Positions 31,023-56,952 of a stretch of 64,000 bases of DNA are shown here, one piece after another; position 1 is the first letter of the stretch; each line of letters starts with the position of its first letter. Origin of the DNA: a virus; IMG/VR virus record IMGVR_UViG_3300042875_000652, positions 1 through 64,000 of that record; one strand, 5' to 3'. Below the pieces are notes generated by a model. That model saw only the letters and a program-made list of their open reading frames with translations, had not been told where the DNA came from and did no database searches. Made by a program: the position numbers and the translations under genes.

Positions 31023-33077
31023 ATGGGCTGGAATGCGCCTCAAAACAAAGGCTTGGGCTCACAATCAAGCAAAAATCTAGGATACGGAGCCCCCATATCC
31101 ATGAACCCGTCCCTCGCTGGGAAGGCGTATCGTGACTCTTGGGACATAGAGCGCGCTTACCGCGAAGGCATGTCTAAAATCACTTGGGTCAATAGGTGTA
31201 TTGACGCAATCTCGGGAAACCAAGCGCGCTTGCCGATGATTTTAAGAAAAGACAATTCAAAACATGGCGAAATTATCAAGGGGCGCGAAGCAAATCGTAA
31301 TCCCCTGCTGGAGATTTTAAATAATAAAGCCAATGTCGGAGAAAACTCTTTTATTTTTAGATACAGGCTTTCTGCTCAGCTCATGCTGGGTACTCGTGGA
31401 GCTTTTATAGAAAAGATACGTGGACGTGATGGTGGAATCATTGGGCTCAACCTTCTTCCACCTCAGTCAACAGCACCAATACCAGACCCTAAAACGTTTG
31501 TTTCCGGCTACGAAGTGCAAATGCCTTATGGTGAGAAAATAATACTCAAGCCAGAAGATGTTTGCTGGGTTAGACGCCCTCACCCTATCGACCCTTACCT
31601 ATCGCTTACGCCTCTTGAGGCAGCAGGTGTGGCCATAGAAATCGAAAACCTCGCCAAGATTTACAACAGAAACTACCTTCTTAACGACGGACGTCCGGGT
31701 GGACTTTTAGTTGTTAGGGGTGAAATTGATGAAGACGATAAAGAAGAACTGCGTAACAGATTCAGAGGAAACCTAGCAAGGGCTGGACACACTACGGTCA
31801 TTGCGGCAGACGACGGAGTTGACTTTGTTGACACTTCTGCAAACCCACGTGATGCTGCCTACGTCCAGATGCGACAGATAACTAAAGAAGAAATACTTTC
31901 TGCATTTGGTGTTCCTGAGTCTGTTATTGGTAATGCCTCTGGCAGAACCTTCAGTAACGCTTCAGAAGAGATTCGTGTTTTCTGGATGGAGACAATGCTT
32001 CCCCATCTGGAGCCAATATCTAGAGCGTTAGACGAACTTGATGAAAAGTACTATCTAGATTTTGACACGACCGAAGTTCCAATCCTCATGCTTTATAAGC
32101 AAGAGCGAGACAAGTATTTACTACAGGAATTCCAGTCTGGATTGATTAGCGCGAACGAGTACAGAACTGGCTCGTCACGCAAGGAAGTAGATGCCGACTT
32201 GGCTGACTCGCTTCTTCAGAATCCAAACCTTATTCCTATTGCGAACACGAAAAAGAAGATGGAAGAAGGCCAGGCTCAGATTCCTGGGGCTCCTGGGGCT
32301 CCTCCGGGAATGCCGGGAATGCCAGAAATGCCAGGGGTACCACCTGGAATGCCTACTCCTGTTCCTCCAATGGCAGAAACCATTCCTTTGGACACAAATA
32401 CTATGCAAGGTGCAATGGCCGAAGCAGGTATGGCGGGAGGAGAATTGGCTCAAACCACCATTCCTACCGAGGCACTTGGTGGACTTCCACAGCCAATGAC
32501 TGTTGCGTCTTCTCCTAGCAATCAAATTCAAGTAAAAGAACTGATTGACAAGAGCGAACAGTCAATCGAAAGATGGACCGAAATTCTTGCAAGAAGCGTT
32601 GAGCGCGTAGCGGAAAGACAGCAAAGAGTAGTGCTTGAAAAAGCTAGCGGCTTAAAGTCTAAAAAAGCCTTGATGCACGGAACCCTTGATGTTGACTCGG
32701 TTTTGTCAATTGAGACATGGAATAAGCAGATAGAGGAAGACATCCGTCCGGTCGTTTCTTCTATTATTAGCGATTCTTTTGAGTCGCGAGTAAATGAAGC
32801 ATCTGAAAAGGGAGTAAAAGTAAAAGCTCTCCCAGTTAAGGACCTTCGCGCGATGGTTGATGCTCACGTTTCAAGAATTAAAAGAATAAATGAAGCGAAT
32901 TTTTCAGAAATTAATTCACTTATGATTAAATCTTTTGAATACGCAGACGAAGAAAGACGATATTCGTTCTTTAGAGATGGGTTGGTGGAAATGTACACCG
33001 ACTTCTTCGCTTATGGTCAATATCAGCTGGCCGAAAACGAGGCTCGTTCCGCTTGGAACTTTGGTCAAACTGTTTAG
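31023..33077 (+). CDS. Portal protein
   Basis: 684 residues, longer than typical HK97-type portals (400-550). The portal core spans residues about 30-400: RMEVWGSWDIERAYREGMSK-type start region (DSWDIERAYREGMSK), NPLLEILNNKANVGENSFIF, LMLGTRGAFIEKIRGRDGGI, PEDVCWVRRPHPIDPYLSLT, PLEAAGVAIEIENLAKIYNR, MRQITKEEILSAFGVPESVI. A Pro/Met-rich linker (PGAPPGMPGMPEMPGVPPGM) follows and then a helical C-terminal domain (about 520-684). It forms the ring through which DNA enters and leaves the head. The next gene carries the prohead protease. (The RMEVWG notation above is not a sequence claim; the visible start region is the bracketed one.). Confidence 0.92.
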   Translation: MGWNAPQNKGLGSQSSKNLGYGAPISMNPSLAGKAYRDSWDIERAYREGMSKITWVNRCIDAISGNQARLPMILRKDNSKHGEIIKGREANRNPLLEILNNKANVGENSFIFRYRLSAQLMLGTRGAFIEKIRGRDGGIIGLNLLPPQSTAPIPDPKTFVSGYEVQMPYGEKIILKPEDVCWVRRPHPIDPYLSLTPLEAAGVAIEIENLAKIYNRNYLLNDGRPGGLLVVRGEIDEDDKEELRNRFRGNLARAGHTTVIAADDGVDFVDTSANPRDAAYVQMRQITKEEILSAFGVPESVIGNASGRTFSNASEEIRVFWMETMLPHLEPISRALDELDEKYYLDFDTTEVPILMLYKQERDKYLLQEFQSGLISANEYRTGSSRKEVDADLADSLLQNPNLIPIANTKKKMEEGQAQIPGAPGAPPGMPGMPEMPGVPPGMPTPVPPMAETIPLDTNTMQGAMAEAGMAGGELAQTTIPTEALGGLPQPMTVASSPSNQIQVKELIDKSEQSIERWTEILARSVERVAERQQRVVLEKASGLKSKKALMHGTLDVDSVLSIETWNKQIEEDIRPVVSSIISDSFESRVNEASEKGVKVKALPVKDLRAMVDAHVSRIKRINEANFSEINSLMIKSFEYADEERRYSFFRDGLVEMYTDFFAYGQYQLAENEARSAWNFGQTV

Positions 33078-33203: not shown

Positions 33204-35198
33204 ATGTTGCCTGAACTGTACGAATATAAGTCAACCACGCTCGGAACTTCCTTTGCGACCAAGGGTGGCTCCATCAACCTAGATGAAGCTCAGGGAATGG
33301 TTGAGTGCTTCGTAGCCGGAATAGGCAACAAAGACTCAGTAGGAGACATTGTCACTACTGGTGCGTTCACAAAAAGCCTTCAGCGCCGCAAGCCTCGTGT
33401 TGTTTGGGGCCACAACTGGAATGACCCAATCGGTAAAGTTTTAGAGATTTACGAAGTACCAAATACGGACCCAAGATTGCCTTTGAAGATGAAGATGGCA
33501 GGAATCGGTGGACTTTTTGCTCGCGTTCAGTTCAACCTTAATTCCGAAAAAGGTAAAGAAGCATTCGCTATGGTTGCCTTCTTTGGTGAAGAACAAGAAT
33601 GGTCAATCGGCTATAAGACGCTTCGTGCCCAGTTCGACCAGAAGTCGCAAGCAAACGTTATTTACGAACTTGAACTGTACGAAGTATCTCCTGTTCTTCA
33701 CGGAGCAAACCAGCTCACTGGCACTATTTCCGTAAAGTCAGAAGAAGGTGGATATTCCGGTCCAGTTTCCTATATGGAAGAAGACGAAGAAGAAACCATA
33801 AACCGCGCAGAAATTGAAAAGCAATTGGGCTTAATGCTCGGCGCAAAAGTTTCCTTAATGGACGTAAACGGAGAAGAGCTAACCTTTGCTCGTCGTGCAG
33901 ATAACGGTGAAGTTGGCCGATACAAGTGCCATTTCAGCGGAGGTCGCGGACGATACATGTTTGGAGCACCTGAGCCAATTACGGTTGTTGCACCACGCAG
34001 ACCATCAGTGCCTATGCCCGGAATGCCAATGATGCCAATTGGGTCTCCAGGAATGGTGATGAATCAGCCTCAACGCCCCACGCGTCCGCCAGCAATGTCT
34101 ATGCCTGTTGCGATAAGACCAGGACAAAATGGTCCTCAGATTATCGCGCTTCCAGCAGTTGAGTACGAAGATGATGATACTCAAGAATTTGACCCAACAA
34201 ACTTGGACAAAGAAGAAGCAGACCTAAGAGACGCACTTCTCAAGATAACAAAACGTCACGGCAAGTTTAATCAAGACTCAGAAGGTGTTTGGGCCGGATA
34301 CACGCCAGCTGCCGAAAACTCAATTGCTGGCATAGGCGTAAAATGTGCTAACTGCGTTTTTTATCAAGGTGGCGATAGCTGCAAGATAATTGACATGGAA
34401 GTTGAATCAGAAGGAAAGTGCCGTTTTGCCGTCATTCCTAATGGAGTTGTCAAAGGTGATTCAACAGTCAAAAAGACATACGAAATCGAAGAAGAGTTCA
34501 CTCAAGAAGACTACGTTTCCGACCTTGAAGTAAAATACCCTGGAGAGTTAGCAATAGCAGCCCTGCGTGGAGCTATCGGAAGACGTAGAAAAAAGCGTCG
34601 TAAGTTCAAGTTGCTAAGCGAGTTTGGTTCGCAAAGTGATTGGCCCGAAGAGAAGGCATACCTGTTGCCTGTCGTGCCAAAGTTTGCCTTCATGGTCAAG
34701 CAGGCCCTAGACCCAATATTTGACTATCACGGCGTTGAGTCTTTTGTAGACGTGGATGGAATTGTAATGACGTCTGGCATCAGTTATGACTTAATTGATG
34801 CGGTAGATACGGCTGTTGATAACCTAAAAAAAAAGTCTATAAATCAAAATGACATCGAATGGAAAGCTGCTAGTTACCGACTTGGTCGTGCTATTGGTGG
34901 TCGTTTAACAAATAAACCAAATATTGGTGGAGGCCGTTCGGCCGGTCGATTCTTTACGTCAATTGGAGCAGAAGATTTTGACCCATTTAGTGCGCGTGAT
35001 GCCAACCTAAACGGAATAGTCGGTGAAGGCTTATTCCTTCGTGGTGTTGCTCTAGCCACTCCAGACCCAACACCGGATGGCCCTGGTTCAATACGCAACC
35101 CAAAACCATCCCGCGCTCAAGTACGCAAGCCTGAATCAGAGATTCTTGACCGAGCTGGAGACGGCAAAGTCAAGCCTGTCGGCTCAAAACTAAGTAGC
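33204..35198 (+). other. Polyprotein 1 segment A: prohead protease plus Cys module
   Basis: Residues 1-665. The S78/U35-like protease fold and its His70, Ser134 and Glu160 are followed by a Pro/Met linker (MPGMPMMPIGSPGMVMNQPQ). Then comes a 4-Cys module C-x2-C-x8-C-x12-C (381, 384, 393, 406) resembling the HiPIP-like signature. A basic patch (GRRRKKRRKFK, about 455-465) and an EF-hand-like loop at 599-604 complete the segment. It would be the protease itself with its scaffold-like extension. Confidence 0.7.
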
Positions 35199-38100
35199 GG
35201 AAAACTGTTTGACGTTCCACGCATAGACGACCCTGATGTAGATTCTGCGACAAAATACGGCTCCGCTGAGTCACAAAGAGACGAGCTTCAAGGCGTACTT
35301 GATGGTGCTTCAGACAAAGACCAAATAAAGAGACTAAAGCAAGCTATTGCTGAACTCGATAAATACATGAAGAGTGTTGAAAAAACGGTCGAAGGGGACA
35401 TGGAACGCGAAAAGCGTCCAACAAAACCCAAGGCACCACAGGTTCTCAACAGAGAAAACACTCAGCTTGCCAGAGGAATAAAGCCTCAGCGTATACCAAT
35501 CGCTAGTCAATCGATGACAAGCGTAGAACGTTTCTCTTCTGGGAAACTTCCCGACAAAGCTCAGCTTCCAGAAGGCTCCTCGCAGCTTAAAGAATTCTAC
35601 GAAGCGATGGCAGAAGACGTAGTGAAGTTGCTCACGGAGTTAATGAACGACCCAAATAAAGATAAAAACTGGAAACTTCCATGGCGTCGCCCTGAGCTTT
35701 ATGCAAGAAACCCTACGCGCGGTCGCGTGTATCAAGGCATGAACCAGATGACTCTTGGCTTGGTTGCAAAATCTCGCGGGTACGAACTTCCTCGATGGGC
35801 CGGAGAAGGTCAATGGAAAAAGCTTGGTGGAAAACTTAAGCCGGGTGGACGAAAGATGGGCGTTTCTATTCTTGTTCCACGAGAAGGACGCACTTTCACA
35901 GACATAAACGGCAAGGAAGTCGTCGAGGGGCGCTACTACGAGGTACAAACTGTTTATAACGTAGCCGAAGTAGCTGGCCTCCCAAAGAAATTTTATGAAC
36001 CTATCGATGCGGACATAAATCAAGAAACAAGACTTGAAGATTTAGAAAACGTTATTAAGGAAATTGGTCCTGATTTCGTAGAATCATTTGGTGAGGATGC
36101 TTTTTATCGCCCATCAACAGACAAGATTCACATGCCTGCTTTTGAACAGTTTGTTGATGCTACGGCTTTTTATGGGACAGCAATGCACGAAACCGTTCAT
36201 TGGACCTCTCACCCAACACGCCTAAACAGAACTTTAGGTAAAGAATTTGGCGATGAACAATACGCATTTGAAGAACTAATCGCTGAGATAGGTTCAGCGT
36301 TCGCGTTGGGCGCAATGGGTATTGAGCCAACAATTAGAGACAATCACCTTGTTTATGTAGCAGGATGGTTGAAGAAACTGACAGCAGACCCACTTGCCTT
36401 GCATAGGGCAATACTTTCAGCCCAACAAGCAAACGACTTCTTGCTAGACCGTTCCTCGACAATGCGAAGACTTGCTGGCATCCCGGACGATGAAAGAAAA
36501 GGCAAAGACAATGCGTGGCTCGAAGTGCCAATGCTTGCTGGATACGAAGACTCTCCAAGAATCAAGCCGACAACAGGCGTAAGCGGCACAATGGAAGACA
36601 TGCTGGACGTGGAGTTCCCGCAGGACTTCGCACCAGAGGCTAGAAGAACGTCTACTGCGGAACGAGAGATGAGTTCTCTTTCACGAAACCTACCAACAAA
36701 GACCAAAGATGGAATCGTCATTACTCCGTCTGGAAGACTTTCTAGCGGTAGAGGCCCAATCAAGGGCAAAAACCCTAATGCGCCAGAAATAAAGCCCATA
36801 GATGAGACAGTAGCGCTCAGGCTTGCATTTGGTTTGTCAAACGAGCCAACCGAAGAGCAGCGAGACATCATGGCGGTTGCCATGAATCTCATTAGAAACA
36901 AAGACCCGCGCATATTGTCTATTCTTGCAGGTGCTGGAACTGGTAAAACCACAACGCTAAAGAGCATCGCATGGGGTCTGCAGAGAGAATTCGACCTATG
37001 GCCAGAAGGCGACCTTCGGAGACCAGAACAACTCAGATACCTTTCAGATAGGTACGGCGTTGATTTCTCTGGCATGTCCGCGGAACAGGTTAAGGAATCT
37101 GTAGAAAAACTAGCTGAAGAAAAATCAATAAACAATCTTTACTATGCGGTATTTAACAAGAAAAATCAATTCGAAGCAGAATTGGAGTTTCCAAGAAATA
37201 CCGGAGTATCAACAACCGACAAGATTTGGTACTGGTCACTAAAACTAGGACAAGGCGACAAAAAATACGGAACAGGAATGCGCAGAAAAATGCAATTCGC
37301 ATTGATTTCGCCTACTGACAGAAAAGTAAATAATCCCGGAGCCAAGAATCCTAAATTCATCAGCGAAGCTCTAACTCCTGACGAACCAGAAAGACTATTG
37401 CCACAGCAGGTACGGGAGCTCTTTGATGGAACAACCGAGTCTTTTGATGGAATTGAACCAGGATACAGAAGTCTTGGTTGGACAAGATTAGATACTGGAA
37501 GTGATTGGAAAGAATTTTTAGATTTTGCAGACGAGAAGCGCTGGAAGGGTCAAGAAACTAGACCAACTTCTGTTCCCATCTTGGACGATAAGGGAAAACC
37601 AGTAAGAGACGCTAAGGGAAAAATTCAAACAACAATGGAAGATTCGTCTGGATTTATTCTTCCAGATGCGGGCTCAACATTTGTCAGTCGAGACCAATTC
37701 GGTGACCTTTTTAAAAATGCCCTTACTAGATGGAGTCTTTCAAAAGAAGAAAAAGCGTCAGCATGGATGTTTACGCAGCCCGCAATACTAACGCAAGAGC
37801 TAGATACGCCGCGCGGTTCTGGTAAGGACATCAGCCCTGTTGACACCATTTTAGATGAAAAAGATATTCCGGCTCAATGGGTAGAAGCTTTGCAGGAAGC
37901 AATAGACAAATTTTCCGATGGGGATAGCAGTATGCTTCCACCAAGAGATTCTGTCGCAAAACTGTGGATGCTTACGGAGCCAGACCTTCGCTCAGACCCG
38001 GGCTTGATAACGCATACCGAGTCTCAAGAGCGCAAAAAAACTATTCCAGATAGCTACGCGGTTGGAGACACGTATGAGCTTGAAGGCGAAACATGGATAG

Positions 38101-41100
38101 TCAAAACAAGAAAAAAGAGTAAAGGCAAAAACGTTCAAGTTACTCTAACCAAGAGAATGGCGACAGAAGAAAAACCACTCAGTGCATTTTTTGTTGACGA
38201 GGCGCAAGACTCAAATGAAATTCTTGAAACAGTGCTCGACAACAATAGAGCCAATCTTCCGATAGTTGTTGTTGGAGATGATAGACAAGCCGTTTATGCG
38301 TTTCGTAACGCGAAAAACATCCTTGAATCCCTAAACGCTGACTATGAATTAACAATTACCGAATCTTTTAGATACGGAGAAGTAATTGGGCATTTAACGA
38401 ACCTTGCCTTGGGTATGCAAAACCTTTACCTTGACAAACAGGGCGTCCCTCAGTTGCCATGGAAACACGTTAAAGGCAAAGCTCAGGTTGTAGTAAACAG
38501 ACTGTTCGACCCATTGCTTCCTAAAAAAGATAGAAAAGGTCTGGAGCCGGTTGACGAAATCGACGATATGACTCGTGAGTTCCTTCTTAAGGACTTGGAA
38601 GAAAAGTTTTCAACTCCAGAAAAGCGTTTGAATTTCTCTGTACATACGGTTGGAAAGAAAGCTGGAGAAAAATTAACACGCAAAGAGCAAGATGATAAAT
38701 TAAGAGAACTAAGAGACTCCATTCTTGAGCCAAAAGCGGGGAAGATAGTCGACAGGGTTGAGGAAGCAAATAAAGAAGTTCCAAATCTCCCAACCATGAT
38801 TCTCTGCAGAACCAACGCAGAAATCATTAACGAAACTCTCAAGTTCATTAAACTTGTCGTCGATAGTCCAAATGCGAAAAAAGATGATAACGGGTTGCCA
38901 ATTCTGCCAGAAGTAGTCATTCCTTTAAGCAAGCACGAAGAACTTCTAAAGTTTACGAGACATCTTGAGTACATCTTTATGCCTCAAGCAGAAAAAAGCA
39001 AGCGCGGTCTCCCCGAAGTATCGGGATGGATTGGACCCATCTTCGACCAGGGAGGACTGAAGAGAGTAATAAATCAGGCTTCAGGACAGCAGGCCAGAAG
39101 TGCATACAAACTAATAATGCAGGCCCCTCCTGGCGGCGGCGTGCCTCTTGGGATATCAGGAATGTTAACCCTTCTTCAGGGCAGACAGAAAATAGAAATA
39201 GATGCGAAAACCGGTAAAGAAAAAATTACTGTTATTCCTGCGTCAATTCTTCCAGAAAGAAAAAGCGTAACGCTTGAGAATTTCAGAATAGAACCAGAAG
39301 AAATTGACTCAATATCTAAATTTTCTAAAGCCGCATCCGCCCCTCAAGCTAAAGAATCTCAACTACAAAGAATTGTAATAATTCCTCCACCCAGCACCTC
39401 AACCGATGGTCGAGGTGCTGTATATGCTCAACTTGAAATTATAGGCGGAGACGAAAAGAAACCCGGAAAACCATCCGGACGCATTATCGTTACCGGTGAC
39501 GGTGTGGATACCGGTAGACCACAAACACTCCCCGACGGCTCCGAAGCAAGAAACATACCTCCCAACCAAAGAGTAGGTAACGGTCGCTATAGAAGAGACC
39601 TCGAAAAGGTCATCTTGAATCTTGGTTTATCCGACAAGGTAAAGATAATGCAAGACGCAGAGAGGGGCGGCCCGCGAGCCGGAGGAAAGCGCAGAGCGTT
39701 TGACGGATTTGTAATTGAGGGCGAAAACCTTGAAGAATCAACCAAAATATTAAACGACATTGGCCAAGCAATGAGAGATTCGGCTCAAGGCCCTGGTGGA
39801 GACGTTGAGATTACGACCATTCAGCTTTCAAAAGGCCGAGAGTCAGATTTTGTTGCAGTAGCAGAAGACTTGGGAGACCCTAGCGATTCATTGGCTGCAA
39901 ATATTCCACAAGGACAAGCAGGACTTGCCTTCATGGAGGAAACAAACCTCATCCATGTGGCGTTTTCTCGTGCGAAAAAAATGATTGACCCAGGTTGGAA
40001 GGGGTTCAAGTATTATCTCCACGACGAATCTACAAAAGACGTCAGGGCAGCAATCAAGAAAGCAGTACAGGACGGCCATATACCGCCAGAACTAGACAAG
40101 GGGGCCTTTGGAGACGAAGGCGGTATTCCTCTTCCTAAGTTCTATGCAGCATTAAACAAGATGAGTCCTGACGATATAGATGAAAATAATCTTCCAGACC
40201 GAGCAGCGCTTGATGAAAAAGAAATCGAAATTGACCCCGACCTCGTCTTTGACGTGGATAAGGATATTAACGATGTCGTTCGTGACCCAAGTGATTACGA
40301 ATCAGAAGTAGACATAGATGACTTGATTGATGCGGACGAAATGGGAGACGATTCTGATGGTCAGATGCGCCTCTCTAGCGGAACCTCAAACTTCCCTGGT
40401 CCTGGCCGCCGTCTGTCTAGAAGAATGGGCGTAAGAAGCAGTAGTCGCGTCACCCCTGGTGCCATAAGTGCTCAAGACCTTGCTGGAATAAGACTCTTTG
40501 GAGACCCCAATTCACCCAACAACCGCCGCAAGACGGATTATGCAATGCAGACGTGGGCTGGATTCAGGGAAAGAGGTATCGAAATAAATGCCGAAGGAAG
40601 AGAACAAACAAAAAACGCCATGAAAAAAGTCGGCGAAGCCATGAAGGCTCGTCAGAACAGGGTTCGGGTTGGGCGAGTTGGAGACAACTTGCGCAATGAT
40701 AATCCTTCGGCGGAAACATGGATGCTCTCAGTAGACGCTCTCGCAGAGCAACTTCGCATTCCAGAAGATTTTAATGGCCAGGGCGAATCCCTTCGTTCTC
40801 GTTCTGCGACACGACAAGAGATAGCAAGTCTTTTGGGTTTGAGCGAAATGGACAAGCAGAAGATTCAAAATTCCGATGCTGGAGTAAACCACGACGCAGT
40901 TCGTCTTTTGGTTGCTGAACTTGGAAATCAACCAGAGCTGGCAGGCTGGCGCTATTTTGCTCCGGTTTCAAGAGACGAAATCAGAAAGATAATTCCATCC
41001 CCAACAGGAGACACGGAAAGTATCACCCCCCAAGTGGACATGGCAATGGAGAATGCCGGTAGGGCAAACATGCGTGACCGTTTCATTATCGAAACGTTCG

Positions 41101-41954
41101 GCAAAGACGCCTTCCCTCATTGGTTCGACCAAGATGAAGAAGAAGCCATTAGTCCAGCCGAGTACTCTCAATTGGGTGAGGTCGACGAGAGGGCGAAGTT
41201 CCGTGCAACAGGACGATTTGCCCCCGATGACCCATTTGAGGGCGACTCTGAAGCCGAAATTGACCTTTATGGACAAAGCTTTGACGAACTTGAGAATCCT
41301 CCATCCTTGTCTGCCGATGATGAAATAATCAAACTTGATAAAACAGATAAAAAAGACTTTGAGATTGAGCCTTTGCTTAAATATCTAGGAATAGATAAGA
41401 AAGAGTGGAGAACCAGACTTAGTGAAATTCTTTCTGAAAAGTTTGGAACCGATAGTACTGGAGTCAACCCTGAGTGGGAAAAGCAGGGAATCCCAACCGC
41501 AACTATTGCTCACATGATTCGTAAAGGAGTCCTGCCAAATGCGGCAGACGTCTGGAAGGACGGCAAGGCAGGGAAACTGTTTGACGAAGAGATGGAAAGA
41601 CCCAAGTATGCGGTTTATGAAGCCCTTAACGAATTCATAGACAGAAGCTTCCCGAACAGCAGACTCAACAGCAAAGAAAACCGTAACAAAATAGTCGGCG
41701 CGACAGATATGGGTACCGCACTTCGCGATGCTGCTGCTGCAAAAGGTTCAGCCTGGAGTGCAAAGAAAGGCAACGAGCCAAGGTTCGCTGTTTCTGAAAT
41801 GCAAACAATGGTTGACAGGTTTAACGAGATATTCGGAACGGACCATACTCTTGAAGACATTTTCAGCGCCGAGCAATTAAGAAACGCTAAAACCAGAATT
41901 GAAAACGGCGAAACGCTGTCAGGTAAAAAAAGAAAGCCAAAACAGGCTGATTAA
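33204..41954 (+). CDS. Giant head polyprotein 1: prohead protease, ArdC-like, SF1 helicase
   Basis: 2916 residues in one uninterrupted frame. In order: HK97-type prohead protease (about 1-180: WGHNWNDP with His70, EQEWSIGYK with Ser134, ELYEVSPVLHG with Glu160). A Cys-cluster module is at 381-406. An EF-hand-like loop DANLNG is at 599-604. An ArdC-like antirestriction segment (about 790-1130) carries HETVH at 995-999. An SF1A helicase (about 1210-2270) has Walker A AGAGTGKTT at 1242-1250 and VDEAQDS at 1664-1670. An unknown tail covers 2393-2916. Motifs K/R-[LF]-S-S-G occur at 662-666, 776-780, 1178-1182 and 2389-2393, just where domains change. I infer that the protease cuts there. Ordinary prohead proteases are ~200-300 residues. 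Confidence 0.9.
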   Translation: MLPELYEYKSTTLGTSFATKGGSINLDEAQGMVECFVAGIGNKDSVGDIVTTGAFTKSLQRRKPRVVWGHNWNDPIGKVLEIYEVPNTDPRLPLKMKMAGIGGLFARVQFNLNSEKGKEAFAMVAFFGEEQEWSIGYKTLRAQFDQKSQANVIYELELYEVSPVLHGANQLTGTISVKSEEGGYSGPVSYMEEDEEETINRAEIEKQLGLMLGAKVSLMDVNGEELTFARRADNGEVGRYKCHFSGGRGRYMFGAPEPITVVAPRRPSVPMPGMPMMPIGSPGMVMNQPQRPTRPPAMSMPVAIRPGQNGPQIIALPAVEYEDDDTQEFDPTNLDKEEADLRDALLKITKRHGKFNQDSEGVWAGYTPAAENSIAGIGVKCANCVFYQGGDSCKIIDMEVESEGKCRFAVIPNGVVKGDSTVKKTYEIEEEFTQEDYVSDLEVKYPGELAIAALRGAIGRRRKKRRKFKLLSEFGSQSDWPEEKAYLLPVVPKFAFMVKQALDPIFDYHGVESFVDVDGIVMTSGISYDLIDAVDTAVDNLKKKSINQNDIEWKAASYRLGRAIGGRLTNKPNIGGGRSAGRFFTSIGAEDFDPFSARDANLNGIVGEGLFLRGVALATPDPTPDGPGSIRNPKPSRAQVRKPESEILDRAGDGKVKPVGSKLSSGKLFDVPRIDDPDVDSATKYGSAESQRDELQGVLDGASDKDQIKRLKQAIAELDKYMKSVEKTVEGDMEREKRPTKPKAPQVLNRENTQLARGIKPQRIPIASQSMTSVERFSSGKLPDKAQLPEGSSQLKEFYEAMAEDVVKLLTELMNDPNKDKNWKLPWRRPELYARNPTRGRVYQGMNQMTLGLVAKSRGYELPRWAGEGQWKKLGGKLKPGGRKMGVSILVPREGRTFTDINGKEVVEGRYYEVQTVYNVAEVAGLPKKFYEPIDADINQETRLEDLENVIKEIGPDFVESFGEDAFYRPSTDKIHMPAFEQFVDATAFYGTAMHETVHWTSHPTRLNRTLGKEFGDEQYAFEELIAEIGSAFALGAMGIEPTIRDNHLVYVAGWLKKLTADPLALHRAILSAQQANDFLLDRSSTMRRLAGIPDDERKGKDNAWLEVPMLAGYEDSPRIKPTTGVSGTMEDMLDVEFPQDFAPEARRTSTAEREMSSLSRNLPTKTKDGIVITPSGRLSSGRGPIKGKNPNAPEIKPIDETVALRLAFGLSNEPTEEQRDIMAVAMNLIRNKDPRILSILAGAGTGKTTTLKSIAWGLQREFDLWPEGDLRRPEQLRYLSDRYGVDFSGMSAEQVKESVEKLAEEKSINNLYYAVFNKKNQFEAELEFPRNTGVSTTDKIWYWSLKLGQGDKKYGTGMRRKMQFALISPTDRKVNNPGAKNPKFISEALTPDEPERLLPQQVRELFDGTTESFDGIEPGYRSLGWTRLDTGSDWKEFLDFADEKRWKGQETRPTSVPILDDKGKPVRDAKGKIQTTMEDSSGFILPDAGSTFVSRDQFGDLFKNALTRWSLSKEEKASAWMFTQPAILTQELDTPRGSGKDISPVDTILDEKDIPAQWVEALQEAIDKFSDGDSSMLPPRDSVAKLWMLTEPDLRSDPGLITHTESQERKKTIPDSYAVGDTYELEGETWIVKTRKKSKGKNVQVTLTKRMATEEKPLSAFFVDEAQDSNEILETVLDNNRANLPIVVVGDDRQAVYAFRNAKNILESLNADYELTITESFRYGEVIGHLTNLALGMQNLYLDKQGVPQLPWKHVKGKAQVVVNRLFDPLLPKKDRKGLEPVDEIDDMTREFLLKDLEEKFSTPEKRLNFSVHTVGKKAGEKLTRKEQDDKLRELRDSILEPKAGKIVDRVEEANKEVPNLPTMILCRTNAEIINETLKFIKLVVDSPNAKKDDNGLPILPEVVIPLSKHEELLKFTRHLEYIFMPQAEKSKRGLPEVSGWIGPIFDQGGLKRVINQASGQQARSAYKLIMQAPPGGGVPLGISGMLTLLQGRQKIEIDAKTGKEKITVIPASILPERKSVTLENFRIEPEEIDSISKFSKAASAPQAKESQLQRIVIIPPPSTSTDGRGAVYAQLEIIGGDEKKPGKPSGRIIVTGDGVDTGRPQTLPDGSEARNIPPNQRVGNGRYRRDLEKVILNLGLSDKVKIMQDAERGGPRAGGKRRAFDGFVIEGENLEESTKILNDIGQAMRDSAQGPGGDVEITTIQLSKGRESDFVAVAEDLGDPSDSLAANIPQGQAGLAFMEETNLIHVAFSRAKKMIDPGWKGFKYYLHDESTKDVRAAIKKAVQDGHIPPELDKGAFGDEGGIPLPKFYAALNKMSPDDIDENNLPDRAALDEKEIEIDPDLVFDVDKDINDVVRDPSDYESEVDIDDLIDADEMGDDSDGQMRLSSGTSNFPGPGRRLSRRMGVRSSSRVTPGAISAQDLAGIRLFGDPNSPNNRRKTDYAMQTWAGFRERGIEINAEGREQTKNAMKKVGEAMKARQNRVRVGRVGDNLRNDNPSAETWMLSVDALAEQLRIPEDFNGQGESLRSRSATRQEIASLLGLSEMDKQKIQNSDAGVNHDAVRLLVAELGNQPELAGWRYFAPVSRDEIRKIIPSPTGDTESITPQVDMAMENAGRANMRDRFIIETFGKDAFPHWFDQDEEEAISPAEYSQLGEVDERAKFRATGRFAPDDPFEGDSEAEIDLYGQSFDELENPPSLSADDEIIKLDKTDKKDFEIEPLLKYLGIDKKEWRTRLSEILSEKFGTDSTGVNPEWEKQGIPTATIAHMIRKGVLPNAADVWKDGKAGKLFDEEMERPKYAVYEALNEFIDRSFPNSRLNSKENRNKIVGATDMGTALRDAAAAKGSAWSAKKGNEPRFAVSEMQTMVDRFNEIFGTDHTLEDIFSAEQLRNAKTRIENGETLSGKKRKPKQAD
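35199..35540 (+). other. Polyprotein 1 segment B: short spacer peptide
   Basis: Residues 666-779, between two LSSG/FSSG sites. It is mostly helical and charged (LQGVLDGASDKDQIKRLKQA, ELDKYMKSVEKTVEGDMERE) with no recognised domain. It would be a ~12.5 kDa spacer peptide if both sites are cut. Confidence 0.5.
35541..36746 (+). other. Polyprotein 1 segment C: ArdC-like antirestriction metalloprotein
   Basis: Residues 780-1181. ArdC family landmarks: LPWRRPELYARNPTRGRVYQ (N-terminal ssDNA-binding type domain), PREGRTFTDINGKEVVEGRY, YNVAEVAGLPKKFYEP, FYRPSTDKIHMPAFEQFVDA, and HETVHWTSHPTRLNR. The HExxH (995-999) plus Glu in FEELIAEIGSAF bind zinc. ArdC protects incoming DNA from restriction during conjugation, so in a phage it is expected to act early after injection. 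As a separated unit it has a normal ArdC length. Confidence 0.82.
36747..40379 (+). other. Polyprotein 1 segment D: SF1A (UvrD/Rep-like) helicase
   Basis: Residues 1182-2392. Motif I ILAGAGTGKTTTLKS (Lys1248), Q-like EEQRDIM before it, motif II FFVDEAQDSNE (Asp1665, Glu1666), motif III IVVVGDDRQAVYAFRNA, motif IV ITESFRYGEVIGHL, motif V TIQLSKGRESDFVAV and motif VI IHVAFSRAKK (Arg2256) are all present. The helicase therefore looks active. The linker between motifs I and II has a long insertion (about 1290-1640). Such a helicase sealed in the capsid could act on the incoming genome. Confidence 0.85.
40380..41951 (+). other. Polyprotein 1 segment E: unknown C-terminal segment
   Basis: Residues 2393-2916. 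A Ser/Arg-rich linker (GRRLSRRMGVRSSSRV) is followed by helices including AMQTWAGFRERGIEINAEGR, WMLSVDALAEQLRIP, HDAVRLLVAELGNQPELAGW and ATIAHMIRKGVLPNAADVWK. It ends in GKKRKPKQAD. One acidic stretch (PDDPFEGDSEAEIDLYG) lies at about 2685. No domain was recognised; helix-turn-helix-like patches suggest DNA contact. Confidence 0.45.
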
Positions 41955-43731: not shown

Positions 43732-46700
43732 ATGGTGGATGCCCCTATAAATAGGGAAAGAATCGTAGTTTCGGCGCGGCTTATCGTGCCTTTGTCGTGC
43801 TGCGGTGGATTCAACGAAAAAGCACTTCGCTTTAGGCAGTCAATAAATTCTTCTGTATCTACTGGAAGACTAGAGCCAGAACTTGCATTAAAAGCAGTCG
43901 GTGACGTTTTTAGTTTAAGAAAAAAAACAGCCGAAGATACTGATAATAAAAAAAGAGAATTCACTGGAGACACTCGTCCCGGTGTTGCCTCAAATGAGTT
44001 CGGCTATCGCTGGGACAAATCAGCCAAGTGGGAACCAGGCTCTCGTCTTGTCATAAGCCCGTCGTATACGTCGCGCATGGGAATGGGAACCATGCCGAAC
44101 GTGGGTTGGATTCCTAGAGACGAAAATCAACCAAAGTCTTTTCAGGAAATGATTTCGAGAATTCAATCAGAACCTCAGATTCAGTTACGAAAATTTAAAG
44201 TAAATCCAAAAACTGACGACATAATCCCTGAGTCAGAAAAGATAATTGACCCTTTTGCTATTTCTTCCGGCATGACCATGGAAGAAAGACGAAATGCTCA
44301 AAGAAAATATCAAATCGATAATCCTGAAGAAAAAAGACTTCCAGGCGCGAGTCTTGAATCACGAGTTCCGGGAGGCTCTCTTTTAAGTAGAGCAGCAGCT
44401 GTTTTTGGTATCCTGAGAGACGAGAACAACAAGTTTCGATGCCCTCCAGGAACTCCGGCAGCAAATCAGTTCACTGACGCAACTGGTTCCAACTGCTTCG
44501 GTTTTAGTGCTTCAAAGTTTTCACGTTTCGCAGCAAGGGAAGCAGCCAGACTTACGGCAGAAGGCGAATACGAGGGGTTGAGAACAAACGCTAATGCTTT
44601 TTTTGGTTACCTATACGGCGGCAGTCAACAAGCAAGAGGCGTTGCAAGTCCAGAGTTTATTTCCCGATGCGCATACTGGGAAGACCTTTATGGAGACAAA
44701 TTAAAGCCGCCTTCATGGCGCGACACCCCTGTCACAGAAAATCTTCGTCTGTTCAAAAACGGAGCAATACGTGCACAGGACGATATTGCGAGACAAAAAG
44801 CCTCAGCAGTACGTATCTATGATGCTTTAGGAATCGACCCCAGTGACCCAAATGCTCATTTCCAGGCTGTCGAAAAATTACAGAAGATGCATGTTGATAG
44901 TGACGGTGCTGCTGGATGGGACTTAAAGATTTTAAACACTTCTTCTGGTGGAGACGCATCTCGTCTAACTGATTTAGAAGTCAGAGAGTTTACTGAAGCA
45001 AGACTTAAATCAGTTTCAGGGTGGAATCGTTTATCAAACGAAGAACAAAAAAGACTTATTGATTCTGACATTAGAAGGTATCAAGAGACAGAACGAGCAA
45101 TGTTCGAAACACTCTTGGACCAATTCATGCAAAATCCATCAACAGCGAGAGTGCTTGGAAGAGTTGAATATAACTTTTTATCTGATGACGAAGCTGGAAC
45201 AGGAATGTACAGAGATGCCCCCTCTATTGTTCCACGATTAAAACCAGACGGAACACCAGTTCTTGACAAAGCCGGCAACCCCGTAATGGGCAAAGTTCCC
45301 GGAGAACTACGTAGCGTTATTCATATAAACATGAAAGAAATTCTACAAAATCAAGAAACAATGCTTCCAAACATGGGACCAGATGAAAGATTGGCAATTT
45401 CTGCGATTGGCGCACGAAGCGAAGCCGAAGGTCGTTTAGCGGTTGCAGATTTTCTTGTCAACGTAGACCATACCGCAAGAGGAATGGCTGGACTAATTGA
45501 TGGTGTCTACTCTTTCTCTAGTCACATCATGCTTCACGAGCACGCACATAGTATTCAGCTTCAAGTATTCATGGCGAAAATTCAAGAACAGATAGACAGC
45601 AAAGGTTTCATATCTGTTCCCATAGTAGACAGAAACGGAATCGTTAAAGGGACAAGAAACGTAGACTCAATCTACAGACTGTCCGGCGATGACGTTATGG
45701 CGATAATGACCGACGTAGCGGACGACATAAACCTGGATTCCTTAAAAGACGCCATGGAGCGCATCAAATCTGTGGCACCTCTTGCTGGAGCGTATCCAAG
45801 AGATGCATACAAAGAAGGCTCAGAGGTTTGGGCTCTTGAAGTAGCAGCAGAACTACACGCCCTTCGCGCGAGAGGCATAATATACGGAGACGACATTGAC
45901 GCAGCTTTAGCCTTTATGGACGACATAGGCGATAGTAGAGCGTCGATTGACAGAGCTCTTGGTGACGAGACCGCAGCGCTTGTTGACATGGACGACGTGT
46001 TCACTATTCGTCCAGACTCCGTCGTTCCGGACGGCATGCCGGAAGAATCCATAACAGAAGCGCTAGGGGACAGGGACGAACGCATTGCTTCTGCTCTTCG
46101 TGAGGAAATAAAACAATTCAAGACGGGATTCAAAGACCTTCCTGAAGATGAAATGATTTCAGAAGCTGCAATTATTGAATCTCAGAGAGATGCTTCAAAT
46201 AACACGTTAAAGAAACTTAATGATTTCGAGATTGACCCGTCCCTGCCTGAAGACGAGAAAGAGTCAATAAGGGGATATCTAGAGAATCTTAAGAAGCAAA
46301 CGCAAATGGAATTGGACTTCCACGACACTAGATACAACGAAGCATCAAAAGCGTGGAGAAAAAAGTACGGCATCGGAGCTAGAGGAGAAAAAGACAGATT
46401 TAAAGAATCCGTTAAGGCAGTCCGTGAAAGAGAAGGACTGTTTGATGATGTTGAAATTGAAGAACTTGCAAAAATAGCAGCTCTCGACGACCTTCGTAAG
46501 TCTGTAGAAAAAATGCCAGAGAAGAAGATAATTCGACGCCTGGCTGATGACGAAATATACCTAAGCACTCTTGACCCATCTTCCGACGAGGCTAAAAACC
46601 TAATTGAAAAGATTGACGTCATAAAAGAGCAGTATGTACAAAACATGCGTGACGCAGGAGACAAGTCGACGACTGCCAAATTAAAGAAAAACCTAGACCA

Positions 46701-47673
46701 GAGTGTTAAGGATTTAATTTCTCCTCCAGCAAAAAAGAACGTGTCCTTAAAGAGCAAGCAAGAAGCAAAAGACCACGCAACAAAAGAACGTCGCCGGGTT
46801 CGCGGAACTGCAGAGCAGAAAAAAGCAGTCAAAGAACTCGGAGACATTGCATCTTCGGACGTAGGACAACTGCTTGACCCTGCGGCTCAGACCAGGGCCG
46901 GAAGAGCAATAAACAAAAGAAACGCCAGAATAAAGAGATTGGGACTTACGGTTGATGAAAAATCATCTGAAGAAGGCGACGTTGTCCAGCAAGTTCAAAA
47001 TTTGCTAATTCCAGTCATGGAAGTAATCGACGGAACGTCTATTGCTGACCCGTTCGAGATAGAAACAGTTATTGATTTCGATTCAGGAGTTCTACGAGGA
47101 AAAATTGAAGGCAAAGAAATTGAAATGCCTCAATTTGTTTCCGGCAAGGTTCTGACGACGAAAACAAAAAAGCTGGACATGCCAGAAAAAGGAATTCGCG
47201 ACAAAGAAACTGGGAAAACCGCTCGCCGCGTAGTTGTACAGGTTCGCGAGGGAGACAGAGGCCTCTTTCCTTCAGCAGGAGAAGACGACCAACGCTTTGT
47301 TGCTCCACCTGGACGCCTTCGCATTACGGGGATAGACCCCGACGGAACAGTAAGAGCAGAGTTGTCTTATCAAAAAGACTCTGTTGAGGTCATTGACTCC
47401 ATGGCATACAGTTTGGAGACAAACAAAACTGATGCAATTTGGGCGCAGAGCCACGGTAAAAAAATCAAAGCAGTAGCAGACAAGTACGTTAACTCGCGCC
47501 GTGAATCAGGTAAGGAATCTACGGGTTCAAGAAGTGATTACGATTCCGTCTCAGAAACCTCAAGCAAAACAGTTGTAGACGAGGTTGTGGACGCTGGTGG
47601 TTCTTTCGGAGAAGGTTTTGACGAACTACCCCCTCACTTGTCGTCTGATGACTCAAGTTCCCGCTTGTCTTCT
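43732..47673 (+). other. Polyprotein 2 segment A: HEHAH zinc-metallopeptidase-like segment
   Basis: Residues 1-1314. HIMLHEHAHSIQLQVFMAKI (His602, Glu603, His606) has the HExxH zinc-peptidase form. The Glu-rich helix SEVWALEVAAELHALRARG about 100 residues later could provide the third ligand, as in gluzincins. A long helical Lys/Glu-rich region follows (about 800-1090), and then a beta-rich part (RITGIDPDGTVRAELSYQKD). The substrate is unknown; cell wall, capsid or host protein are all possible. Confidence 0.55.
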
Positions 47674-50600
47674 GGAAAGAAAGACGTACTGGGCGCTCCC
47701 GCTACGCGCAAGCAAAGAACAGAATTAAGAAATAAGTCAATGTCTTCTCAGGTTAGGGAAGTTAAATCCATTCTTGGAGGAGGACAGGGGGACTCGGCTG
47801 ACCCACTGTCAAGGGGTGACATCCACCCAGACGTTGCTCGTTTAATCGCCGATACTCCAGAAGAAGACCTGTTAGCAAGAGCCGAGAATACTGCATACAG
47901 AATGCATGAAGGTTTCGATAGAAGAGTACGTGTTCGCGCAACAGATGACGACATTGAGAGACTTTCTTCCACGGGCTCCATAAGGTCCCCGTTTGCTTCT
48001 CCAGACGATGAAGCAAAAAGAACATCACGCAGAGCGCAAAGATACTCAGGAATGGGTCCAGACGAGCGCTCTTCAAGACTGTCTTCCGGCCGAACTATTG
48101 ATTCTTCAGAGAATTTAGCTGAAAGAAAAAGGCAAGAAAAAGAAGTTGCAGTTAAGGCTTTTGAAATATTTGACAAAGTCCTTAACGCCGACGGAAAAAA
48201 CTTAGACGACATGTCCGAAGCAGAACTCTCTGCGTCTTTCGGTGGGAAAGTAAAGAAATCTAAGAGAAAATCAGTAAGTGCTACAAACGACTCGCTTTAT
48301 GAAGTGGACGACGTGCCGACAGCTATTGCGTTAATGATGTTGGGGCATCACGTTGCTGTTAAAGACCAGGACCTAAGATTGACCGAGCAATCACAAAAAG
48401 CATTTGAAGAAGAAGTTAAAAATGCTGCAAAGAAACATATTGACGCCCAAAACCCTCACCCTAAATGGGTTCAGTATCAAGAACAGTATAAAAAAGATTC
48501 TCCAGATTTAGACTATGGAGACCCTGCAGTTGTCAAGGAAATGGAAAAGAACTACGTAGACAGCTATCAAGCAGACCTTTGCGCTTTGTATAGTCCGGCA
48601 CAAAACTTGCTGTGCTCGGGGCATATCGGTATTGATAGAGAAAAAATGCCTCAGACAAACGGAAGGTCTGCAGGCTACGATACTGTCGCGGTAAGAGCGC
48701 TTAAAGCCGGAGAAGCCGCCGGAAAGTTTGAACCTGCAAAGACTATAAAAAGAAACGCTGCAGTAGACGCAGAGTTCGCAGAAGAACTTAATGCAGCAGT
48801 AATTAAAGCCAACGCTGGTCTAGTCAAAAAGGGTAAACCAGAATTAACAGACGAAGAGATTTCAAAAAAACTTTATGAGATAGTTTCAGAAAAACATTCA
48901 TTAAGGAATCAATTTGGGGACAAAACACAAGAACAACACAAGGGTGATTCTTACGACAAAATGTCTGATGCTTCGAAAAATTGGCTATATGAAAACACTG
49001 ACTGGAACGACACTGAAGTAAACTTGGAGACACCATTCATAGAATGGCTAAATGGAGTTATTGAGCCAGAAAACGGCGAACCTTCGGTAATCCTTAAAGA
49101 GGTAAATCCTGGTGATTATGCTCCATCACAGCAGCAGCTAGTTGCATCAAAAGTAGACGGTACCGCTAGGCAAATACAAGAAAAAGCCATAGAAGTTGCC
49201 GAGGGCATAAGAGCTGATAATCCTGGAATATCGGACGAAGACTTTAGAACAAAATACCTAGAAGAAATGAAAAAGCAATGGTTTATGCAGCCCATCCTTA
49301 CTGCAAGTGATGGGTTTATTGTTGACGGTCACCATAGGTGGGCAGGAATAAACGTAGGAAACAGTTCACTTTCGGAAGAATTACGACTCCCTTTGAATGT
49401 TAATGAAATACAAACGGACATAATTGAAGCTTTGACCCTAGGAAAAATCTTCCAAGACGCTTGGGGTATTAAAGAAGCGCGCCTTGGAGCTGAAAACAAG
49501 TGGAAAGAGGGAGAAATAACCGACATTAGTAAAAACGAAATATCTCAACTCATGGACGGTTTGACCAAAAACGTGGGCACCCTTGTGGACGAAAAGTACG
49601 CAGAAGGAAATTTTGTTCAGCTTGGCTCGATTGGTCTTTCAAACAATCCAGACTACGCAGCACGAGCCAAGGAAAGACAGACTAGTGCTCTGACAAGAAG
49701 ACCCGGCCCAGCAGCAAGAGCTCGTGAACTAGAGCTTGATGCAGCCATTCGTGATGCAGGGAGACAACGTTCGCCAGATGCTCCCGCGGAAAGAGAATCT
49801 GTTGGCAGATTGGCAAAAATGCGTAAAGGAAAGAGACTTAGTAGTGGAAAGACTATCGATGCTCCCGCTTCAGGCAAGACGGTAGGAATGTCTCCTAAAA
49901 ACTACGCAAGCGAATATTATTCAAGAATAGGTCTACCAAGCTCTCTTGACCCAGACATGATGCCAGTAAGTGGATATCTCGTTCATAAATCTCACATAGA
50001 TGCAAAACGTGCTCAGATTACAAAAGGCGGAATGCCTGGAAATCTCAGACCAGATGGTGTGTTTGAAGTAGGGGACGAAGATTTAGTTGGAGACGGCCTA
50101 ACGGCCTTGGGTGATATGGAAATAGTTTTGCGCCCTGGAGTGTCAAACCGGGTCGCTTACGGACGAGGCAATGCTCTCACTTCGGCTCACAGGCCCGTAA
50201 TGCTTAACTCACGTAACAGGGACGACGTAGCTGACGCAATCCTTAATGCCGACGGAGTAAACGCTGAAGAAACAAAACGAGAAGCCCTTTTACACATGCT
50301 CTCTTCTTCTTTGAATAACGATTTTTCAAACGCAAACGCATCAAGAAGCTCTAGTGGAAAAATGCCATCTTCGTTCGACAAGAAACTACCCGAAGGCTCC
50401 ACCAGGGAACCTTTTGAGGCTCAGATTTTGGGCGGATTTGACGTTGCTGATATCGAACAAATAAACGTTCCGTTGAGCAAGATTGAGGCCGCCTCGGCGA
50501 AAGAAGACATTTCCGACGTTGTTGATGCCGTATCGATTGCTGACAAGTTAAGAAAAGCCGGATTTTCTCAAGAAGAAATTGAATACTTTTACTCTATGGG

Positions 50601-55584: not shown

Positions 55585-56952
55585 ATGTCGGAAGACAAGG
55601 CACGTACAGAAGAGCTTCAATCAGCTCTTCGCACAAAGATGGCAGACAATAAGACCATCGCAGATTCATTCAAAATCGAGGACGGCACAGTAGTCGTTAC
55701 TCCTGAGCAAAAGTCAGCGTTCGACAAGAACATGCGCGACATCAAGGAAATCAAGGGCCTTCTCGGAGACCTTGAGACCATGAACCAAGTAGACAACTGG
55801 GCATCACAGCCATCAGGCGATTCTGCAGGAGCAGCTTATGCTGCCGCCGCAGCAGACCTCAATAGCTTGTCTTCACGTGAAATCAAGTCAATTGGACAAA
55901 TGTTCACTGACTCACCAGAGTTCAAGGCACTTAATGGTGGCCGCAATGGAGCAAACATGGTTTCACCATGGCAAATTGCTGCATCGTTGACTTCATACAC
56001 TTCTGGTTACAACGTAAAGGACGTTTACTCGGGTCTGCCAACAACAGCAGTAACCGATAGCCGTCTTGGTTCATTTGGTTCCGTACAGCGTGACCCAATG
56101 GTATTGCCACCAACACGTACAAAGCGTGTTCGTGACTTGTTCCCAGTTCGCAAGACAAACGCTGCTGTTATCGAATACTTCCGTCAGCTTGGTTTCACAA
56201 CCTTGCAGGCTGGAGCAGGCGTAAACAGTGCATCATCAGTTGCAGAGCGCAACGCCGGCAATACCGCATTCGGTATCAAGCCACAGTCTTCATTCGCCTT
56301 CGTTGGTGAGCAGGCTCCAGTGCGCACACTTGCACATTGGGAAGCAGCACACCGCAACGTTCTTGCAGACGAGCCACAGCTTCGAAGCATTATCGACAAC
56401 GAATTGATGTACGGTCTCCGTCTCCTTGAGGATAACCAAATCCTTAACGGTAACGGTACTGGTGAAAACTTGTTGGGCGTTCGTAACACACCAAACATCC
56501 AGACATACAACTGGTCAAGCGGTGCAACTCTGCCAGTGAAGGACACAAAGGCTGACGCGCTTCGCCGTGCGGCAACCCTTTCCTTCCTTGCTTACTACGA
56601 GCCAAGCGGCATCGTTCTTCACCCGAACGACTGGGAAGACATCGAACTTACTAAGGACTCACAAGGCCAGTACCTCATCGCAGTTTCGGTTGCAATGGGT
56701 GGCGAGCCACGCGTCTGGCGTATGCCAATCGTTGACACTCCTGCAATGACTGAAGGTAAGGCACTTGTTGGAGCCTTCGGTACCGGAGCACAGTTGTACG
56801 ACCGTGAAGAAGCAAGCATCCGCATCAGCGAACAGCATTCGGACTTCTTCGTCCGTAACGCAATCGTTATCCTTGCAGAGCAAAGACTTGCGCTTGCTGT
56901 CAAGCGTCCAGAAGCATTCGTTGAAGTAACCTTCGACAACGCACCAGCCTAA
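55585..56952 (+). CDS. Major capsid protein (HK97 fold)
   Basis: 455 residues, best ribosome site of the region (AGGAG, 6 nt before the ATG) and followed by a strong terminator. Residues 1-95 form a charged coiled-coil delta-like domain (FDKNMRDIKEIKGLLGDLET). After it come HK97 landmarks: YNVKDVYSGLPTTAV, NAAVIEYFRQLGFTTL, FAFVGEQAPVRTLAHWEAAH, YGLRLLEDNQILNGNGTGEN, LLGVRNTPNIQ, PSGIVLHPNDWEDIELTKDS, DTPAMTEGKALVGAFG, AVKRPEAFVEVTF. LSSR (95-98) at the end of the delta domain is a candidate cleavage site. The E-loop and insertion domain are of normal size. Confidence 0.95.
   Translation: MSEDKARTEELQSALRTKMADNKTIADSFKIEDGTVVVTPEQKSAFDKNMRDIKEIKGLLGDLETMNQVDNWASQPSGDSAGAAYAAAAADLNSLSSREIKSIGQMFTDSPEFKALNGGRNGANMVSPWQIAASLTSYTSGYNVKDVYSGLPTTAVTDSRLGSFGSVQRDPMVLPPTRTKRVRDLFPVRKTNAAVIEYFRQLGFTTLQAGAGVNSASSVAERNAGNTAFGIKPQSSFAFVGEQAPVRTLAHWEAAHRNVLADEPQLRSIIDNELMYGLRLLEDNQILNGNGTGENLLGVRNTPNIQTYNWSSGATLPVKDTKADALRRAATLSFLAYYEPSGIVLHPNDWEDIELTKDSQGQYLIAVSVAMGGEPRVWRMPIVDTPAMTEGKALVGAFGTGAQLYDREEASIRISEQHSDFFVRNAIVILAEQRLALAVKRPEAFVEVTFDNAPA

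Follow-up and report, generated by a model that had tools for sequence, protein, structure and literature searches.

Why should a phage prohead protease stand at the head of a 2,916-residue protein? The question is raised by an open reading frame (ORF) in IMG/VR virus record IMGVR_UViG_3300042875_000652 (83,889 bases; G000 among the records compared here), of which a stretch of 64,000 bases, referred to below as the window, was analyzed. The ORF joins a protease of the Peptidase_S78 family to an ArdC-like antirestriction module, a UvrD-like helicase and a tail segment, and an initial annotation had proposed that its product is a polyprotein that processes itself and brings enzymes into the capsid. 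The sequence comparisons described here support that proposal, and the case is strengthened by three features absent from the initial annotation: a slippery run of A's, two more giant proteins with the same motif, and a motif-like site in the major capsid protein (MCP); the motif also occurs in a tape-measure-like protein, likewise not described there. We think it rather probable that slippage gives rise to two products, and that the longer chain would enter the prohead, be cut at a repeated x-[LF]-S-S-G motif, and have its enzymes ejected.

A prohead protease fused to cargo modules

The frame runs from an ATG without an internal stop (Table 1), as originally described, and all of the residues that the initial annotation singled out are in place: H70 and S134, which we take to be the catalytic residues of the S78 domain, the zincin signature HExxH in the form HETVH (residues 995-999), the Walker A lysine K1248, the DEAQ box (1665-1668) and R2256. 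The protease and ArdC-like identities are borne out by Pfam, with matches to Peptidase_S78 (E = 4.7e-11, 43.5 bits against a cut-off of 21), ArdcN (E = 6.9e-14) and MPTase-PolyVal (E = 8.4e-39). The full SF1A helicase that had been described holds as far as the UvrD-helicase match (E = 1.1e-10), and the helicase C-terminal model UvrD_C_2 stays under its cut-off (0.0079); because UvrD_C passes the cut-off in the relative L030, the window protein likely holds a full SF1 helicase. PHROGs assignments agree with the Pfam domains. When 22 polyproteins are aligned, H70, S134 and K1248 prove to be the same in all 22, D1665 in 21 and R2256 in 20; H995 is conserved in 19, the other three having ArdC elsewhere in the chain or unaligned. 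A sequence search for solved-structure relatives of the protease found none. The tail has no match in the isolate-phage collection, and structure comparison gave no confident match for it, a result that does not show a new fold, as one domain can fill structure-match lists.

The relatives compared were 11 close whole-protein relatives, 80 of 165 portal relatives, and the best 80 of at least 579 from a profile of residues 1-1200. The same fusion, which the initial annotation had suggested seeking in related phages, recurs in dozens of them: the protease forms the N-terminal part of a long ORF on all contigs of sufficient length, apart from L144 and L145 (contigs filed under one gammaproteobacterial metagenome-assembled genome, or MAG), which encode stand-alone proteases of 444 and 438 residues, and apart from the seemingly split genes described below. 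ArdC is usual in the fused relatives, and the helicase was not detected by BLAST in L073, L196, L202 and L206. The nearest isolates examined are Gordonia phages GMA6 and DalanDe, Brevibacterium phage Cantare and Streptomyces phage Gilgamesh, which are among the closest isolate relatives of the protease, portal and capsid protein (capsid proteins 32-48% identical). Because these are actinobacteriophages, an actinobacterial host is plausible for this phage group.

A repeated motif in three giant proteins

The four copies of [KR][LF]SSG in the window protein lie where the initial annotation placed them, and in 20,000 shuffles of this protein there were never more than two. Cutting at all four would yield pieces of 72.8, 12.8, 45.2, 134.8 and 58.7 kDa, in line with the ~44 and ~135 kDa originally anticipated for the ArdC and helicase fragments. 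Across the record, three giant proteins together contain 16 copies of the broader pattern [A-Z][LF]SSG (shuffles predict 0.43) and a tape-measure-like protein contains two (0.15 expected), with none in the other 67 ORFs (1.0 expected); when I is also accepted at the L/F position, the second giant gains a further copy and the ORF at 4148 has one. The second giant has no Pfam family at E 0.01, and its G014 relative shows a weak ParB-like match, below the cut-off. The third giant, with motifs at residues 107, 282, 440, 808, 1099, 1223, 1605, 2514 and 2871, illustrates what the predicted cargo may include, as the motifs separate an acetyltransferase (GNAT, 332-381), an exonuclease (RNase_T, 853-1040), a zincin (HExxH at 1458) and pentapeptide repeats (2259-2494). 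The tape-measure-like protein, so labeled from its size, sequence and position, has no family match; its relatives in G002, G004, G006 and G007 carry one or two copies (one with RFSSG), and the likely G003 counterpart carries none. Six further records have 2-16 copies per giant (G004 read from base 40001 on), and their stray copies outside the giants, 15 with I allowed, are near chance, the summed expectation of ~12 being taken over ORFs without any copy.

The codons of the motif vary, with 16 distinct 12-mers among the 18 copies in G000, and selection therefore acts at the level of the peptide; for this reason, the idea that the motif stems from a repeat in the DNA was rejected. The residue before the motif and the choice of L or F follow lineage across separate genes in some records: S is used in two of the three G014 giants, R together with F in both G006 giants, and R in G000 and G007, with mixed pre-motif residues in G002 and G004. 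Lineage-specific variants shared across genes would also be accounted for by a trans-acting binder, and the motif could then be a docking or packaging tag for a capsid or scaffold component, the giants entering the head whole, much as the N4 virion RNA polymerase is packaged unprocessed despite its MPTase domain (PMC5512222; this and the other papers below are cited from partial texts). We think this unlikely, as one tag per protein would be enough, yet there are up to 16 copies, placed at module borders, and the MCP has a related L[ST]S where it is presumed to be cleaved.

Motifs lie between modules

Motif positions were compared over 32 polyproteins with ArdC, the proteins having been thinned from 150 to 48 before the border, alignment-interior and disorder tests; the window protein was added after thinning despite a near relative (L148) in the set, and the 32 include one near-duplicate. 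The start of ArdC ranges from residue 509 to 3826, and the nearest upstream motif lies 3-25 residues before it in 31 of the 32 and 257 residues before it in the remaining one; a downstream motif, present in 28, is within 5-85 residues of ArdC in 25 and beyond 1280 in three. Random placement put a motif 3-25 residues before ArdC in a mean of 2.2 of the 32, with a maximum of 8 in 2000 trials, and near-miss pentapeptides are found at the ArdC border in none of the 32 and inside ArdC in seven cases; because the polyproteins are related, such border counts are not independent trials. Set against uniform placement, the protease and ArdC contain no motif at all (11.4 and 22.6 expected), and the helicase span (6 versus 55.0), tail (1 versus 24.0) and mid region (2 versus 17.6) are all depleted. 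In G007, where the helicase precedes ArdC, the motifs still lie between the modules. The claim that motifs coincide with domain borders thus stands, and motifs within folded domains, which the initial annotation had named as the observation that would count against it, are not what the 32 polyproteins display.

Flanking disorder averages 0.184 for the motif, 0.102-0.139 for control pentapeptides and 0.121 for random positions, with p-values that are too good, since the motif copies are related, and with fewer near-miss control words than motif copies (217 versus 329 in the 48 giants). All four window motifs fall at a predicted local distance difference test (pLDDT) score below 50. In the model of residues 2300-2916 (mean pLDDT 73), motif 4 lies in an 84-residue stretch at pLDDT ~24-39 and the tail is folded. 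In that of residues 1-1200 (mean pLDDT 52.7), motifs 1-3 flank a helical piece (residues ~681-733) and ArdC (mostly pLDDT 65-87); the poor quality of this larger model, protease included, means that it supports the linker reading only weakly. Disorder-like flanks, together with changes in module order, would also suit an inert linker or a recombination seam that aids module shuffling. We consider this very improbable, since the DNA of the motif is not conserved, which points to selection on the peptide, and since near-miss pentapeptides do not mark the ArdC border.

A related site in the major capsid protein

In the window MCP, residues 93-104 read N-S-L-S-S-R-E-I-K-S-I-G, at the presumed border where capsid proteins of the HK97 type shed their delta domain. 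All 25 MCPs from motif-bearing records, the window among them and several near-identical, have L-[ST]-S here, as against none of four MCPs from relatives in G027 and G028 without motif repeats and none of the four isolates; an MCP could be located in 14 of 26 and in 12 of 17 records, many of them fragments. The G027 contigs, read whole, have three and one scattered [LFI]SSG, at chance level (1.26 and 1.36 expected) and never two in the same ORF. The nearby K-S-I-G resembles what we take to be the known HK97 cut, so that a cut at either bond is possible.

The capsid protein site also bears on which enzyme would do the cutting. Authors on polyvalent proteins credit MPTase domains with self-processing (PMC5512222), and as HExxH is present in all three giants of the record, the motif sites might be cut by these embedded zincin domains and not by the S78 protease. 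Zincin cutting would leave unexplained the matching L[ST]S of the MCP, the usual S78 substrate, and it is the S78 protease that forms the conserved N-terminal domain of the fusion. We regard zincin cutting as decidedly unlikely, and the motif is most likely a processing site of the S78 protease.

A slippery A-run between protease and cargo

A run of nine A's, downstream of the protease domain, is the predicted slippage site. In the window, one extra A would end the product at 549 residues, one fewer at 545 and two extra at 546. Among 158 protease loci, 12 were too short for the A-run test, and the 146 testable loci include overlapping stretches of the same contigs and were therefore counted as 73 distinct 1700-base sequences; a run of 9-11 A's is present in 129 of the 146 loci, equivalent to 62 of the 73 sequences. 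The sequences with these runs form 34 clusters whose upstream DNA is dissimilar (0.48 mean pairwise identity over the 60 preceding bases), and 31 of the 34 cluster representatives have 10 or 11 A's. The long frame is open in 31 representatives, the other three being of the L190 type (frames swapped), L178 (9 A's, against 10 in 8 of the 10 members of its cluster) and L058 (interrupted upstream of the run). In 30 of the 31 in-frame clusters, each of the two shifted frames runs into a stop within 5 codons, compared with 5.1% of random control codons. Lys542-544 are invariant in the alignment, leaving only the third base of each codon free to vary, but upstream Lys codons in the same genes are AAA only 40% of the time. 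The run is the sole sense-strand run of at least 9 A's in any called ORF of G000, G002, G004 (part) and G014, with codon shuffling of G000 predicting four; G003 has one further A-run, and G006 and G007 have none. At least nine A's, near stops in both other frames and synonymous conservation are the features of dnaX-type slippage sites, and the A-run probably makes some copies end after the protease.

Several relatives look split, namely L053/L197 (one contig), L068, L190 and L057/L178 (one contig), as a result of a frame change at the A-run, which in L053 falls exactly at the Lys-Lys-Lys stretch; gene fission in L053 and L068 was rejected on these grounds. In L053/L197, L068 and L190 the frames are swapped: reading on in the zero frame yields the protease, and it is the -1 frame that stays open beyond the site. 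In L053/L197 and L068 the ORF that follows encodes the cargo, and the L190 contig ends before reaching it. A separate break in L058, near residue 286, is possibly a sequence error.

The A-run could act by -1 ribosomal frameshifting on A AAA AAG, as in Escherichia coli dnaX, instead of by transcriptional slippage. The codon phase fits xxA AAA AAA/AAG, and both the window and the L053 type contain A AAA AAG. We see this as possible, if doubtful: the 10 or 11 A's of most representatives are more than a slippery heptamer needs, and there is no consistent downstream RNA structure (z = -0.08 to -2.54 in six stretches, those other than the window placed by eye and differing in their start relative to the run).

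Proposed two-product scheme

Attaching cargo to a component of the head is a simple means of getting it packaged. In the scheme that we favor, RNA polymerase or the ribosome slipping on the A9-11 tract would give the short prohead protease of 545-549 residues, and unslipped messages would give the protease-cargo polyprotein of 2,916 residues from the same start. The protease part would take the long chain into the prohead, where, during maturation, the protease would cut x-[LF]-S-S-G and free the ArdC-like antirestriction protein, the UvrD-like helicase and the tail module. It would cut the same site in the two other giant cargo proteins and the related L-[ST]-S site in the MCP, and the freed enzymes would be ejected with the DNA.

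Several observations weigh against this scheme. L146, a Phycisphaerae MAG contig, encodes a fused protein of 2690 residues (L146:9956-18025) without LSSG; it has five copies of G[LF][AS]S[RHN], against 0.58 expected for the wider pattern, a pattern picked post hoc. The A-run is lacking in 11 of the 73 distinct sequences: four of the G006/G007 type, which are motif-bearing, L144, L145, L146 and the four isolates. The conserved-alignment-interior test was not discriminating, with values of 0.723 for the motif, 0.743-0.778 for control pentapeptides and 0.862 overall. The MCP match lacks the G, and with a canonical-looking K-S-I-G a few residues on, LSS may not be cut; the contrast among MCPs may reflect a single evolutionary event, and the G028 MCP contigs (16.8 and 4.7 kb), which differ from the contig of L146, have no motif copy and are too short to exclude giants elsewhere. 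Single stray copies are found in an isolate: GMA6 has RFSSG next to its portal and ALSSG in its tape measure. Finally, the motif is present in the tape-measure-like protein, and a tail protein, unexpected in proheads, does not suit a protease confined to the prohead.

Features of the locus

The portal gene, which served as the anchor for collecting relatives, lies directly upstream of the polyprotein gene, and the terminase large subunit gene is divergent from it. Coordinates are collected in Table 1.

Table 1. Features of the polyprotein locus and of related genes in the record (window coordinates unless stated)
Feature	Position	Strand	Basis
Portal protein	31023..33077	+	Pfam and PHROGs
Protease-cargo polyprotein, 2916 aa	33204..41954	+	single ATG-started frame, no internal stop
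Peptidase_S78 prohead protease domain, aa 32-175, with His70 and Ser134	33297..33728	+	Pfam, alignment
Predicted short protease-only product, 545-549 aa, ~60 kDa	33204..34852 (end of 549-aa form)	+	shifted-frame translation
A9 homopolymer, Leu541-Lys-Lys-Lys544, predicted slippage site between protease and cargo	34826..34834	+	sequence, relatives
Motif 1, KLSSG, aa 662-666	35187..35201	+	sequence
Motif 2, RFSSG, aa 776-780	35529..35543	+	sequence
ArdC-like module: ArdcN, aa 797-888, and zincin MPTase-PolyVal, aa 946-1069	35592..36410	+	Pfam
Motif 3, RLSSG, aa 1178-1182	36735..36749	+	sequence
UvrD-like SF1 helicase segment, aa 1183-2388	36750..40367	+	Pfam
Motif 4, RLSSG, aa 2389-2393	40368..40382	+	sequence; very low-confidence stretch of model
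Tail segment, aa 2394-2916	40383..41951	+	folded in model, without confident structural relative
Second giant, 2389 aa, HExxH at aa 602; RLSSG at aa 1311 (47662-47676), 1449 (48076-48090) and 2035 (49834-49848)	43732..50901	+	sequence
Major capsid protein	55585..56952	+	phrog_10
L-S-S-R, MCP aa 95-98, presumed delta-domain/mature border, just before KSIG	55867..55878	+	MCP alignment
Tape-measure-like protein; KLSSG at aa 35 (16184-16198), RLSSG at aa 561 (14606-14620)	11567..16300	-	size, sequence, position
Third giant, 3009 aa, nine LSSG copies	record 68068-77094 (L013:4068-13094), outside window		Pfam and motif scan

Elsewhere in the window, a gene on the minus strand (23218-24357) encodes a PAPS-reductase-family protein (Pfam PF01507); ORFs beside it look ParB-like by eye, possibly pointing to DNA modification. 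A second minus-strand gene (61003-62928) encodes a ribonucleotide reductase with a B12-dependent (class II) insertion domain.

Comparison with known systems

Polyvalent proteins are already known: Iyer et al. (2017, PMC5512222) described them in phages and conjugative elements, with ArdC-N and MPTase domains and, in a few, UvrD helicases. The phage examples are often among late genes, and packaging followed by splitting by embedded peptidases was proposed, with a comparison to RNA-virus polyproteins (PMC5512222). The window protein is like them in that it combines several effector and processing domains (ArdC-N, MPTase and UvrD) in one chain encoded among late phage genes. It differs in the position of its peptidase, as assemblin-like peptidases of polyvalent proteins are always C-terminal in that account and the S78 domain is N-terminal here and in the fused relatives; the border motif, the matching MCP site and the slippery tract are not found in the portions of PMC5512222 consulted. 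We found no published description of an LSSG border motif or of a slippery protease gene in the open-access literature, represented mostly by titles and abstract openings. As far as that literature tells, what is new over polyvalent proteins is the N-terminal S78 domain, the recurrence of one border motif in this and other giants, with an echo in the MCP, and the slippery tract. The four isolates have neither LSSG repeats nor an A-run in the 36-42 kb examined of each. The protease ORFs of GMA6, Cantare and Gilgamesh (417-641 residues) leave no room for cargo, and in DalanDe gp27 (L106 22418-27322), a 1633-residue protein, S78 lies in the C-terminal third and is the only domain that Pfam shows.

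For phage SPN3US, we take gp75 to be the major capsid protein. The SPN3US prohead protease gp245 cleaves gp75, the portal, ejection proteins and itself at the motif AXE (PMC10052503). It illustrates that one prohead protease can act on a number of head and ejection proteins through a single short motif; as that partial text describes it, gp245 is a separate gene, what it removes are N-terminal propeptides and not enzyme chains, and its motif is unrelated.

For the A-run, the closest parallel is dnaX of Thermus thermophilus, in which slippage at nine bases, with nearby stops in both other frames, gives two products (PMC5009743, Atkins et al.); candidates with the frame roles reversed are mentioned there, and L053 is alike. 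A poly-A frameshift has also been described in a phage methyltransferase gene (PMC2853527). In retroviruses, fusion to capsid components packages enzymes before cleavage (PMC5009743). As in dnaX and Gag/Gag-Pol, short and long products are predicted here from a slippery run with flanking stops; the difference is that the part common to both products is a phage capsid protease, extended by antirestriction and helicase cargo.

Injected proteins of large phages, and how they are sorted into the head, are known for few phages, and a readable border motif would allow the packaged enzymes of these uncultured phages to be predicted and counted from sequence. It would also directly test whether polyvalent proteins are true polyproteins, as was proposed in 2017. 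We lean slightly toward the fuller view that this is a Gag/Gag-Pol-like strategy of a double-stranded DNA phage, in which A9-11 slippage would set the ratio of free protease to polyprotein, some chains would enter each prohead, and LSSG cuts would release injected enzymes for anti-defense and DNA handling; two other giants, possibly the tape measure and, in related form, the MCP would use the same code. If true, it would be the phage counterpart of retroviral enzyme packaging by fusion to a structural partner.
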